A DNA stretch of 26,059 bases. It comes from a virus. The translations under genes and the position numbers were made by a program. A model generated the notes under the pieces. The model was given only the letters and a program-made list of their open reading frames with translations. It ran no database searches and was not told where the DNA came from. The stretch is from positions 1 through 26,059 of IMG/VR virus record IMGVR_UViG_3300018080_000533, one strand, 5' to 3'. Position 1 is the stretch's first letter. Every line of letters starts with the position of its first letter. Below, in pieces: positions 7,109-16,063 of the stretch.

Positions 7109-7861
7109 TCAGACACCGAATAGCTCCGATTTGGTTTTCGTTCCCGGCGAGCCCTCCCATCCGGGATCGGGGTTTACGCCGGTCGGCGGGCGCCGCGGCT
7201 TGAGCCGCTTGCCGGCCGCCACGCCCACGACCGAGCATCTGCATCGATGCCCGTTCGGAGGCCACCAGGTCGCCCAGATCGGATCGTCCCGCGACGCTGT
7301 AGTCCCTGACATGGCAGCATGAGATGGCCTAGTATCTGAGTCCCCGATCGCGTGATAACGGAACATGGGCACCAGATCCTCGACCTCTGGTGCATGAAGC
7401 TGGTACCATCTTCCGACTCCGTATGCGGTGAAGACGTTGTTCCGAAATATCGTCTCGATCTGATATCGGTTGTCGCCTGAGTAACCCAGGGTGGACCAGA
7501 CATCGTCGAGCCCCTTTTTCCATTGATTGAACGTGGTCCCCTCGTCGATCGCTTTCTCAAGAGAGCCTCTGACTCGCTCGAGCGTGGTCTCATCGGTCGC
7601 TTTGGCGATCGTGAATGAAAGCCGGCGATCCTCGTCCGCGAGCTCGTTAAAATCTTCCTTGAGCATGGGGACTTTACCGGAGAAAAAGGAGACCGCCTCT
7701 TTGAATCCAAGCGGCGATAGCACGATGTCCTGGACGATCCCGCCGGCAGCAAGTGCTTCGAGCCCAAGCTCCTCGATGATCTTGGCCCGGCCGAGCAGCT
7801 CGGCTGTGAATATTGCCCTGAATATGAGTTCCGAAAGCGGTTCAACTTCTTCGTCCGTCAA
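7109..7861 (-). CDS. Head morphogenesis protein (Mu gpF / SPP1 gp7 type)
   Basis: The 250-aa product contains family blocks SPLGFKEAVSFF, RRLSFTIAKATDETTLERVR, LGYSGDNRYQIETIFRNNVF, AYGVGRWYQL and the C-terminal block GDSDTRPSHAAMSGTTASRD followed by WWPPNGHRCRCSV. This is the Mu F domain, a minor capsid protein that binds the portal and is needed for head assembly. No ATG with a ribosome site exists upstream. The chosen start is a TTG that overlaps the portal stop as TTGA and has no clear Shine-Dalgarno. The frame stays open back through an A9 run in the portal 3' end, so production as a portal-gpF frameshift fusion is a serious alternative. Confidence 0.8.
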   Translation of the reverse strand: MTDEEVEPLSELIFRAIFTAELLGRAKIIEELGLEALAAGGIVQDIVLSPLGFKEAVSFFSGKVPMLKEDFNELADEDRRLSFTIAKATDETTLERVRGSLEKAIDEGTTFNQWKKGLDDVWSTLGYSGDNRYQIETIFRNNVFTAYGVGRWYQLHAPEVEDLVPMFRYHAIGDSDTRPSHAAMSGTTASRDDPIWATWWPPNGHRCRCSVVGVAAGKRLKPRRPPTGVNPDPGWEGSPGTKTKSELFGV

Positions 7862-9339
7862 GGGGTAGAGGATGTGCTCATAGTCTTTTTTTTTAAGCCC
7901 TCCAGAATGTCCTGATAGATTTTTACCCCGGCCTCTTCGGCCACGGCACTGAGTTGTTCTGGAGGAAAAAGCCTCCCACGATCCGCGCTCATGGATAAGA
8001 TTCCGGGCCCGGAGTACATGCCCACGCCCTGCGGCCCCCTCATCGGAGGCACCAGGATCTCTTCGTCTTCCTTTGGCTCCGGATAGTTGTATTGCTTGTA
8101 CGGATAACTGGCGGGCACTTTCACGCCCACCTTGCCGATCATGATCTCGTCGACCTTGGCCTGGGTGAGTTTGTCTCCTTCCGGTTTGACCTGGGTGGCG
8201 TAGGTCGGGTACCTGGCTTGGGCCCCCAAATTGAGCTCGGTGATCCAAACCACAAGGGACGAGTTCATGGTTTCGTCGAGATCGCCGGCGTCGGCTTCGA
8301 GGATGTCCTGGCGCACTTCTTCATGCACCGTACCCAGGGCTTGAGTCCCACGGCCTTCCTTCGACGAGGCCTCGTGCGACAGCGTCTGCCCGAGAAGCAT
8401 CTTTGAGATCTCGGCATTGACCCAGCTCAAAAATCTGTCGTATGAACCGCCGCCCGTAGAAGAGTCTTTCTGACTGACGGAAACGAAGTCGATATTGGTA
8501 GCGTCACTGATCACAGCGCCCGTGTCGGTGGCGAGCTCAAGCACGGCTTTCTTGAGCTCTTCGATTTCGTCCGGCTTGGCGCCGGCTTTGTATTTCCCGA
8601 GCCGGATGGGATGGCCGTAGACCTCGAGGAAGCGGACCCAGTCCTGGATGGAATAGGTCTTAAAGAGGTAATACCAGAGCACCGGAAAGAGCTCCCCGGA
8701 TCGCAGGACGCTTCCGTCTCGGGTCAATTTGTGAACGATCATCTTGCGAAGTGGAAATTCTTCGCCCGGATATGGATTGGCGTCGGTCACAAGACGGAGG
8801 TTTTCGTAATCATCGAAGATGAACTTCTGGTGAGGCCGGCCCAGGAGAGCATACGGATAGATGCGCCTTACGGGCAGGCCTTTGCTATCGGTCGTATCGA
8901 CCCAGGTCCACATGACCTCGGCCACGGCGAACCCCTTGAACGGCGCATTCAGCAGATCCCGAAGCGATGTCTTATAGAAGTCGATGTACGAGATCGCCTC
9001 TTTGACCGTATGTGCGATCTCCTGGTCGAGATCGTCTTCGGAGGCGGCCGCGATCTCCCAGGGCTTTCCGGTCACGGCGAGTTTCCGGGTTCGGATGCAC
9101 TGGGCGATGTGAGGATCGCGATCAGGAAGCTCTTCAAAGAGATCCAGGAGCTCCCGGTTGTTCCCCACCTTGGCGGCGCGGATGATCGTGGCCACTCGTT
9201 CCGGCGTCATACCGGTGATCGGATAATAGGTATAGCGGTCCTTGATCTCGGTACGAGCGACTTCGCGCAGCATGACCTTCGGCAAGCCCACGGCCTTGCG
9301 TGCTGCAGCCAATGCCTTTGTAAAGATATGCTCGGCCAT
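7858..9339 (-). CDS. Portal protein (DUF935, Mu gp29-like)
   Basis: The 493-aa product has DUF935 features: PERVATIIRAAKVGNNRELL and LFEELPDRDPHIAQCIRTRK near residues 45-90, PFKGFAVAEVMW, the KMIVHKLTRDGS block, WVRFLEVYGHPIRLGKY and MLLGQTLSHEASSKEGRG. It forms the dodecameric-type portal through which DNA is packaged. The start is the ATG at 9339, overlapping the terminase stop as TGATG with AAGG upstream; a GTG three codons earlier is less likely. The frame ends GLKKKTMSTSSTP, only eight codons past a slippery A AAA AAG. Typical family members extend a little further, with a helical tail resembling the residues encoded just after the slip in the other frame. Confidence 0.9.
   Translation of the reverse strand: MAEHIFTKALAAARKAVGLPKVMLREVARTEIKDRYTYYPITGMTPERVATIIRAAKVGNNRELLDLFEELPDRDPHIAQCIRTRKLAVTGKPWEIAAASEDDLDQEIAHTVKEAISYIDFYKTSLRDLLNAPFKGFAVAEVMWTWVDTTDSKGLPVRRIYPYALLGRPHQKFIFDDYENLRLVTDANPYPGEEFPLRKMIVHKLTRDGSVLRSGELFPVLWYYLFKTYSIQDWVRFLEVYGHPIRLGKYKAGAKPDEIEELKKAVLELATDTGAVISDATNIDFVSVSQKDSSTGGGSYDRFLSWVNAEISKMLLGQTLSHEASSKEGRGTQALGTVHEEVRQDILEADAGDLDETMNSSLVVWITELNLGAQARYPTYATQVKPEGDKLTQAKVDEIMIGKVGVKVPASYPYKQYNYPEPKEDEEILVPPMRGPQGVGMYSGPGILSMSADRGRLFPPEQLSAVAEEAGVKIYQDILEGLKKKTMSTSSTP
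7885..7891 (-). promoter_or_regulatory. Candidate -1 programmed frameshift site, portal to gpF
   Basis: In the portal reading frame, codons TTA AAA AAA AAG give the heptamer A AAA AAG, the slippery sequence known from E. coli dnaX. It lies inside a run of nine A (7886-7894). Six bases upstream is GGAGGG, a Shine-Dalgarno-like element of the kind that stimulates -1 slippage. The zero frame stops eight codons later, while the -1 frame continues straight into gpF. Homopolymer length error or natural indel is the alternative. The motif is seen; frameshifting is inferred. Confidence 0.55.
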
Positions 9340-10769
9340 CACATGCACCTTCTGAAATCAGCCGATCGCTGTTTCCCCAGGCTCTCGTAGTGTACTCTGC
9401 CGGCAGGCTGGCTTGCGGCCATCACCGAAAGCGCCTTGGCCCAGAAGTGATCGGCATGGCCGGTCTTCTCGGTTCGTTCCGCATCAAACCGGAAATGCCC
9501 TGTCGGCGTGGGATACTTCTTGATGCTGTGCAAGCTCTGCCGGATGGTCTGGTCCACCGGGATCCGACTGCCCAGGTCGTCGAGATTGTTTTTAAGGCTC
9601 GTAGCCAGGGCTTCCTTGTTCGCGTTGCTGAACGAGATGCCCTCGACCATGTGCTCTCCGAAGCTGTCTCGCGCCTGTTCGGCAAGCTGCATCCCGATCC
9701 CTGTCTCATCGATGCAACCTCGTCTCATTCCTGGGAGCTCCAGCAGTGCCCACAAAACCTTTTCCTGGATATAAAAAGGCGTCTTCCGTAGTTCGATCAC
9801 AGCCTGGCTTTCCATCACACCGTCCGTCATGGCATCGAGCCAGATCACAGAGAGATCCCGCCTCCTGCCGATATCCATGCCGAGATAAAGATCGCCGCTG
9901 AAACGGACGCCGCCGAAGATCTCGCCGAGAGATAGAGGCCGATCATACCTGGTTATCTTGAATTCCTTGTAAGCTTCCTTCGCCCTCTCAACCAGTGCTT
10001 CCGCCCAGGTAGGCCGGAAGCCTGCCCGATCGTCTTCGACGGTCCCGATAAGGTCATAGGTGAGAAATGCGCTGACTTCGTCGAGGAACTCAACGAGATA
10101 TTCCTGAGCCCAGGCTTCATCGTCGGCCAGAGCGCGCTCAAGATCTTCCGGAGTGCATGGCCGACCTTCTTCATCCTTGAGCTCAAGGCCTTGGGCCACG
10201 GCATCGTAGATCGTGAGATTGTGCTTCGAATATGCTGCGCCGCCGGTCCAGATGCCGTAGAATTCGTTCTGTTTGCCCTGGGGCGTGGAGACGATCCTGA
10301 TCTTGAAACCTCGGGTGACTGTCGGGAAGAGCGCCCTCCAGATCGCCCGGCTGTCCTTGTGAAAGGCGAACTCATCAAGGAGGACATTCGCCGAATGTCC
10401 TCGAGCAGTCGAAGGGTTTGCCGGAAGACCGATAATCCGGCTTCCACCATTGAACCGTATCTCGAGCTGCTTGTAGACCGTGCCGTCGTCTTCACTTTTG
10501 AATTCGCTTTCGATGAGGTCTGAAGCTGCCAGGTTGATGGCTCGCGCATGCATCCCTGCTGCTTCGATCAATTCCTTGGATTGGCGTTCGCCTGCACTCA
10601 GAAACACCCACTTTGTTACCTTCTCCACACAGTCGATGACCGCTTCCAGGGCGGTCGAAAAAGACTTTCCGGTTTGCCTCGCCCACTTGCCGATCTTGAA
10701 TCTGGATCTGTCATTGACCCATCGTTTCTGGTACTTATACAGTGGCACCGCCGGCTCAGAGGAGCCCAT
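9339..10769 (-). CDS. Terminase large subunit (Mu gp28-like)
   Basis: This 476-aa packaging motor carries an ATPase P-loop WARQTGKSFS (residues 29-38), Walker B ANVLLDEFAFH with D132/E133, and a coupling motif IVSTPQGK. The RNase H-fold nuclease follows, with candidate metal ligands D299 (LGMDIGRRRD), D354 (GCIDETGIG) and D440 (GHADHFWAKAL). It cuts and pumps DNA into proheads; in Mu-like phages it works on integrated copies by the headful mechanism. The ATG at 10769 overlaps the small terminase gene by 14 bases and has GAGG three bases upstream. All expected catalytic elements are present. Confidence 0.93.
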   Translation of the reverse strand: MGSSEPAVPLYKYQKRWVNDRSRFKIGKWARQTGKSFSTALEAVIDCVEKVTKWVFLSAGERQSKELIEAAGMHARAINLAASDLIESEFKSEDDGTVYKQLEIRFNGGSRIIGLPANPSTARGHSANVLLDEFAFHKDSRAIWRALFPTVTRGFKIRIVSTPQGKQNEFYGIWTGGAAYSKHNLTIYDAVAQGLELKDEEGRPCTPEDLERALADDEAWAQEYLVEFLDEVSAFLTYDLIGTVEDDRAGFRPTWAEALVERAKEAYKEFKITRYDRPLSLGEIFGGVRFSGDLYLGMDIGRRRDLSVIWLDAMTDGVMESQAVIELRKTPFYIQEKVLWALLELPGMRRGCIDETGIGMQLAEQARDSFGEHMVEGISFSNANKEALATSLKNNLDDLGSRIPVDQTIRQSLHSIKKYPTPTGHFRFDAERTEKTGHADHFWAKALSVMAASQPAGRVHYESLGKQRSADFRRCM

Positions 10770-15405: not shown

Positions 15406-15424
15406 GACTTGGCCTCCTTTTTTT

Positions 15425-16063
15425 TTACAGACAAATGATCGGCCGCCTGAACTGCGTATTGCCAGGCAGGAAGCGGCCCTGAGCGTCCTTTTCCGATATC
15501 TCGTCCCGGATCGCTGGGTACTTCTGCCCGAGCTCGTGATCGGGGCGGATCTCGTAATTCGACCTCCAGGAGAACACACAATGAACCCGGCATTGATCGA
15601 CGTTCAGGAGCCAGATCCCCTTGGATCGAACCGGAAAGATCCACCGGATGTCGAGTCCGGTGATCGTTGTAAGAGCTTCCCCGGTGCCGGGATCTCGAAG
15701 GGGCTCGATCAAGAGACAGTTCCCGGGCCAGTCTTTTGATATGACCTTCCGGACATAGCCGCCTGCCGCGCCGGCGATCTTCAGGTGGGAATGCTTCTTT
15801 ACTCCATCCCCCTTGTATTCGATCTCGACGCCGTAGACCCGAATCCTTCCGCCGGCCACGAGGACGAGGCCGGTTCTGTTCTCCGCGTAGCCTGTGAAGT
15901 TTTCCACGGTGATGTCTCCGGAGGCGTACAGAATCACGCCTCCGCCGGCAGCTCTGCAGTTATCCAATTCAATATTGCCGTCGTGGCTGATCCTTTGGGG
16001 AGGAATGGTTTCATCCCTATAGACCAGGTTCGACGGCACGGACTCGATTTCGTTTCCCCTCAT
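15425..16063 (-). CDS. Beta-helix-like protein of unknown function
   Basis: The 212-aa product has no recognised family but shows repeating short strands: NIELDNCRAAGGGVILYASG, DITVENFTGYAENRTGLVLV, AGGRIRVYGVEIEYKGDGV, then LTTITGLDIRWIFPVRSKGI and WLLNVDQCRVHCVF. This rhythm (strand, turn, Asn/Gly) is like right-handed beta-helix or pectate-lyase-fold proteins. There is no signal peptide. AGGAG lies seven bases before the ATG. It is odd between Gam and a secreted protein, as beta-helix proteins are usually late tail spikes. It could be a cargo gene or a modification enzyme; this is open. Confidence 0.5.
   Translation of the reverse strand: MRGNEIESVPSNLVYRDETIPPQRISHDGNIELDNCRAAGGGVILYASGDITVENFTGYAENRTGLVLVAGGRIRVYGVEIEYKGDGVKKHSHLKIAGAAGGYVRKVISKDWPGNCLLIEPLRDPGTGEALTTITGLDIRWIFPVRSKGIWLLNVDQCRVHCVFSWRSNYEIRPDHELGQKYPAIRDEISEKDAQGRFLPGNTQFRRPIICL

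Follow-up and report, generated by a model that had tools for sequence, protein, structure and literature searches.

A conserved run of about nine adenines between portal and gpF genes of Mu-type phages as a candidate programmed slip site

Introduction

Recoding in tailed phages is best known from the tail chaperones and from a few capsid or tail proteins. In phage lambda, a morphogenesis gene gives a short form, gpG, and a C-terminally extended form, gpGT, in a set ratio (PMC5009743, PMC4493119). Outside the phages, the dnaX gene of Thermus thermophilus carries nine A's (A9) late in its coding sequence, where transcriptional slippage leads to full and truncated products (tau/gamma) and where off-frame stops lie nearby (PMC1088944, PMC5009743). 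In Shigella mxiE and in IS elements, a base gained by the transcript at a homopolymeric run joins overlapping frames (PMC1088944).

The portal protein and the gpF-type morphogenesis proteins of phage heads are also known to be associated in more than one way. The SPP1 portal gp6 recruits gp7, a gpF-type protein, to the procapsid in few copies by binding it (PMC6316719), and in Microbacterium phages of subclusters EA3, EA5 and EA8 and of cluster EB the portal and MuF domains are found in one polypeptide (PMC7302621). As far as we found, the only earlier description of a slip site between portal and gpF is a comment by an annotator in the record of a single cultured phage, RcapMu (JN190960), where the portal is said to be shorter than related ones, a +1 frameshift to be possible and gpF to lack a good ribosome site.

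Here, a virus record of 26,059 bases, analyzed at its full length and called the window, illustrates how a single portal-gpF gene may give rise to two proteins. Comparison of about 470 portal-gpF loci suggests, with a probability that we would put at roughly 0.7, that a run of about nine A's serves as a programmed slip site, RNA-polymerase slippage being the more likely route.

The portal-gpF junction in the window

By gene content the window is a Mu-like transposable phage. Its minus strand encodes a MuA-type transposase, a MuB-type ATPase, a Mu gp27-like protein and TerL, as well as a Mu-type portal, gpF, a Mu I-type protease, gp37 and a tail sheath. The portal gene (7858..9348, minus strand), read in the zero frame from a GTG start, encodes 496 residues ending in LKKKTMSTSSTP and matches the Mu-type portal profile PF06074 at 285 bits, above the gathering cut-off of 23.9. 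The solved structures nearest to it are the Mu portal (9khx/9knu) and the JBD30 portal (8rka), and the zero-frame product retains the residues that match Mu portal 29-413.

On the minus strand the junction reads CTG GAG GGC TTA AAA AAA AAG ACT ATG AGC ACA TCC TCT ACC CCT TGA. The first-pass annotation had drawn attention to an A AAA AAG heptamer in the portal codons TTA AAA AAA AAG and to a GGAGGG upstream of it, and both are where it placed them: the nine A's occupy 7894..7886, and the Shine-Dalgarno-like GGAGGG occupies 7903..7898, six bases 5' of the last A AAA AAG. Past the run the zero frame extends over 7858..7885 and closes, eight codons on, at the TGA at 7860-7858. The -1 frame, open on this strand from 8248 to 7109, leads into gpF, as had also been claimed, and past the run comprises first a helical portal tail, DYEHILYPLTDEEVEPLSELIFRAIFTAELLGRAKIIEELG (7762..7885, minus strand), and then the gpF domain PF04233 Phage_Mu_F (7229..7576, minus strand; profile match, residues 225-340), which scores 64.3 bits against a gathering cut-off of 29.6. 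Tail and gpF together span 258 residues (7109..7885, minus strand). Because the encoded frame of the window is broken, portal and MuF domains would be found in one polypeptide only in the slip product, for which the predicted size of about 745 residues is upheld. A second A9 in the window (15418-15426, minus strand) lies directly 5' of a GGAGG and an ATG, as the leader of a ribosome site.

The unit formed by tail and gpF has no conserved start of its own. The statement that gpF lacks any good start except the TTG of a TTGA overlap (7861) was too strong, as a GTG at 7721..7723 (minus strand) has AGGA four bases upstream and is the sole plausible internal start. This GTG is nevertheless not a conserved gpF start, because ATT stands at this codon in L002, a contig that was assembled separately and is 85% identical to the window over this region.

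L002 also bears on the quality of the sequence. It shares with the window a 30-base exact match around the run, the A9 and the GGAGGG, and keeps both the stop position and the -1 relation of the frames. For the window alone, direct pairwise comparison gives a suggestive, though modest, signal of conservation around the run. That the break is a homopolymer error of sequencing or assembly, the true gene being a plain fusion of the kind that does exist in relatives, is scarcely credible, as the same A9 and the same direction of the break recur in separate contigs and GenBank phages, as well as in about 45 loci belonging to one clade; L002 and these independent records led to its rejection. A run of another length in the raw reads, or homologues with a disrupted heptamer and a ribosome site for gpF, had been named beforehand as grounds for abandoning a frameshift, and in this lineage the comparison with L002 favors the frameshift, L002 keeping the A9 and sharing with the window no conserved gpF start.

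Distribution of the run among portal-gpF loci

Protein- and alignment-based scans of viral contigs, one scan of genome contigs and some GenBank phages yielded a first set of 404 loci with both genes, in which contigs are labeled by L-numbers and the window as WIN. Searching viral and genome contigs with a single portal protein brought up no relatives, and an alignment of seven portals was too divergent to serve as a search query. With duplicated contigs included, 330 of the 404 loci have complete separate genes, 43 are plain fusions and 31 have portal reading frames that end before the tail; A9 or A10 is found in 14 of the 43 plain fusions, and an A run of at least seven in 24 of the 31 short-portal loci. 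After removal of near copies the run is present in 19 of 44 fused or broken genes compared with 1 of 121 complete separate ones (Fisher p = 6e-12).

The same kind of run, A8-A10 placed just 5' of the portal C-terminal tail, is thus found across many lineages, the cultured phages RcapMu, RcWaterboi and RR1-B among them. Runs with -1 breaks are found in WIN/L002, L028, L042-44, L045, L069, L098, L100, L071, L180, L184/L186, L280 and EBPR siphovirus 4; among GenBank phages the -1 break accompanies A9 in EBPR siphovirus 4, RcWaterboi and Rhizobium phage RR1-B, and A8 in RcapMu. Across 23 loci of the window type there are 22 runs of at least nine A's at the junction and none in the rest of the same 137.7 kb. 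L184 and L186 keep the run intact just 3' of a stretch that is only 52-63% identical. In L180 and L181 the run is A7, and the L180 stop follows one codon past it. In other loci outside the RcapMu clade (L020, L154, L268, L271-L275, L288 and L291), A9 or A10 accompanies an in-frame fusion. One of these, L020, is the nearest relative of the window in the portal tree (sister, SH-aLRT 99), keeping the A9 with the fusion encoded in frame. In L143 and its near copies the portal is complete and contains an A9 some 250 nt further upstream.

A different arrangement is found in L354 and L355, where a truncated portal and the tail-gpF unit are distinct genes in succession, the latter having an ATG and a ribosome site to itself; this is a third route to the same two parts. 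Because these loci encode the short portal and the tail-gpF unit as separate genes, each is suggested to be functional. They also lend something to the idea that the truncated portal and gpF of the window are simply two ordinary genes, gpF being started by coupling at the TTG of the TTGA (present in both the window and L002) or at the internal GTG. The TTGA, however, lacks a ribosome site and was not seen in the other lineages inspected, the GTG is lost in L002, the RcapMu record likewise notes no good ribosome site for gpF, and both the A9 run and the presence of the tail in the gpF frame would be left unexplained. A separate gpF start, neither candidate for which is conserved, was therefore rejected, and we consider it highly improbable.

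Several loci stand apart. In L360 (585-640), poly-C and poly-G tracts (C9, C10, G8) end a truncated portal beside a tail-gpF gene in a manner resembling L354/L355. L088 (2670-3136), which has no A run, shows a -1 break from portal to gpF, L266 has a broken portal/gpF, also with no A run, and in L162 and L414 the portal reading frame stops in mid-core. L098 (3007-3273) shows a second frame break between slip site and gpF, which may be a sequence error or real.

The RcapMu clade

RcapMu genes 36/37 (GenBank JN190960) have the same architecture as the window. By the present reading the RcapMu shift would be -1 at the A run, as opposed to the possible +1 of the record, which separately flags gene 35, upstream of the portal, for a potential -1 frameshift (L425:371; JN190960 18511). 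The peptides HVCFAEPGGPVER and ITDQAISAAER are encoded between the run and the annotated start of RcapMu37. The RcapMu study reportedly included shotgun proteomics of particles.

A scan seeded with the RcapMu clade added 62 loci and gave 63 with both genes, 60 of which carry an A8-A10 run, exactly A9 in 55. Portal and gpF do not share a frame in 48 of these 60 loci (46 at -1, L442 at +1 and L479 at a contig edge), and the remaining 12 are in-frame fusions. No other A run of at least eight occurs on the sense strand in the 385.5 kb of these loci. The flanks of the run are variable: the 12-mers on the upstream side take 50 distinct forms and those downstream 49, and all three codon phases occur. 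The other lysine codons of the portal (n=1172) are mostly AAG (890) rather than AAA (282). Conservation of the run thus goes beyond codon use and base composition. L442, in which A8 in place of A9 puts gpF in the third frame, is the one clear off-register member; together with the doubly broken L098 it indicates that errors or real variants do occur.

Broken and in-frame states have changed into one another at least four times within this clade, and also between the window and L020, with the run kept. Such interchange, the mutation-prone nature of A9 tracts and the A8 of L442 are what might be expected if replication slippage made this a phase-variable locus, so that only some virions would encode the fusion. 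Against this, the breaks are almost all -1, not half +1 (L442 and L098 being the exceptions), and the length stays at nine across divergent loci, 55 of the 60 runs being exactly A9. RcapMu and RcWaterboi, moreover, align without gaps at 95% identity and keep the frame despite A8 versus A9, and run length agrees among the near-identical contigs L042-44 and in the identical pair L020/L021. Apart from these exceptions, both off-frames and a varying run length, the pattern of phase variation, were not found, and phase variation is disfavored as very improbable, on account of the -1 bias and the fixed length.

What the -1 frame encodes

Where relatives keep the two genes separate, a helical tail (..LAGR..) closes the portal, and the start of gpF lies right behind it, often with an overlap. 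The zero-frame, -1 and +1 readings were each scored with a profile built from 121 separate portals. Joining the -1 frame of the window moves the end of profile coverage from 424 to 485 of 489 positions and raises the score from 410.2 to 416.6 bits, a modest gain of 6.4. With the same profile the gain is larger in L280 (+50 bits), RcapMu (+31), L045 (+29), L069 (+29) and L184 (+25), and about nil in L028, L042 and L071; the +1 frame added no portal-profile score in the readings tested. The suggestion that the residues after the slip are the normal helical tail of the portal is in this way supported, as the -1 reading extends the match into the tail, and the zero-frame product is therefore a portal without its tail.

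The solved chains are modeled over 369-383 of 512 residues in the Mu portal and 405 of 526 in the JBD30 portal, and the Mu portal chains align to a predicted model of L020 only up to about Mu residue 390, so that the tail probably lies outside the ordered ring. In the AlphaFold model of this in-frame relative, the slip site (residues 466-469) falls in a low-confidence linker (421-479) that precedes helices 481-568. As the model is middling (mean pLDDT 65), only the domain order and the linker are taken from it.

Mechanism of the proposed slip

The comparative case for a programmed slip is strong, and the proposal of the first-pass annotation that a programmed frame change joins portal to gpF is supported by it, although a different mechanism from the one it favored is the more likely. 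The run of about nine A's would sit in a flexible linker joining the portal core to its C-terminal tail. Read as encoded, the window gene would give a portal with its ordered, ring-forming part and without the tail; one extra A in the transcript, added by slippage of RNA polymerase, or a step back of one base by the ribosome, would join tail and gpF to it. Rings of mixed short and fused subunits would then fix the number of gpF copies at the portal vertex.

What appears to be conserved is about nine A's, whatever the codon phase or the encoded frame, which fits polymerase slippage better. This route is favored because it is the run that is conserved, and not a heptamer, a Shine-Dalgarno motif or a downstream structure, and because the layouts are those of dnaX and of the mxiE/IS type, the run is kept across changes of state and its length is nine. 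About nine A's within a coding sequence, as in realignment of the Thermus dnaX and mxiE type, are found in both the window and the RcapMu clade. With respect to length, it is at nine that many bacterial genomes select against runs of A or T, which has been attributed to transcriptional slippage (PMC1088944). The A8 of RcapMu and the A7 of L180/L181, which fall below the nine usual for polymerase slippage, count against it.

A programmed -1 ribosomal frameshift at A AAA AAG, aided by GGAGGG, is the route that had originally been proposed, and the window does contain both elements, unchanged in L002. The breaks are -1 almost without exception, and the L180 A7 with its stop one codon on looks ribosomal. 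Neither element is general, however. A GGAG, GAGG or AGGA core within 20 nt upstream occurs in 0 of 60 RcapMu-clade loci and in under half of the other 23, and the GGAGGG at this place is common only to the window and L002, so that the conservation of heptamer and GGAGGG expected across homologous loci failed to appear. The heptamer itself is mostly absent: in the RcapMu clade it is usually not A AAA AAG because a C follows the run in 43 of 60 loci, and other lineages mostly have A AAA AAA. Predicted pseudoknot-free structure in the 60 nt downstream has a z of 0.05 in the window and a mean of -0.62 over 23 loci, with none that is consistent among them, and nearly all lineages have at least eight A's although six or seven would do. 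Ribosomal slippage as the source of the fusion is thus the less likely route, yet it stays a rival because every run of at least eight A's contains A AAA AAA in frame and because of the A7, the A8 and the heptamer with GGAGGG noted above. It may also act as a helper of polymerase slippage.

Implications for head assembly

From these comparisons we infer that slippage occurs, mostly in transcription, and that its ratio would bear on gpF copy number. On balance we lean, by a small degree, toward regarding the homopolymer slip site as a widespread copy-number device of Mu-type heads, in which polymerase slippage sets the share of the twelve portal subunits that bear gpF and in which A9 has been kept through repeated flips of the encoded frame. 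In the in-frame A9 relatives a slip would instead truncate the product; in the in-frame fusion loci both other frames hit a stop within 16 codons. Off-frame stops close to the run lie only slightly nearer to it than would be expected (Fisher p about 0.03).

If this is true, it would be the first conserved transcriptional slippage site described in head genes of tailed phages, as far as we found, and a case of recoding in head assembly shared by many lineages, among them phages of the culturable Rhodobacter and Rhizobium. Portal rings that mix subunit types are predicted, offering a direct test of how gpF copy number is set at the unique vertex. With a run that stays in place as the encoded frame flips, the family also represents a natural experiment that separates the slip signal from the frame. 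The slip site would further explain the short portals and start-less gpF genes that gene callers report in these phages.

Comparison with known systems

The literature searched, which left most subscription papers outside its scope, held no description of portal-gpF slippage. Plain portal-MuF fusions (PMC7302621) and slippage at A9 (PMC1088944, PMC5009743) are both known, and as far as we found it is their combination that is new. The layout of Thermus dnaX matches that of in-frame relatives such as L020, L271 and L448; the present genes differ from it in being phage head genes and, in the window, in needing the slip for the longer product. The overlapping frames of Shigella mxiE and the IS elements are arranged as in the window, but the mxiE run is of U, and the products here are structural proteins. 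The lambda gpG/gpGT pair is likewise a short and an extended form of a morphogenesis protein, although it is made from tail genes by a ribosomal heptamer such as GGGAAAG, with no long homopolymer. In the EA3, EA5, EA8 and EB fusions a single gene is used and no slip site is described, so that every portal subunit would carry MuF, whereas in SPP1 gp6 and gp7 come from separate genes and associate non-covalently, with no recoding. In the phages described here, the slip ratio would fix how many copies of gpF are covalently attached to each portal ring of twelve.
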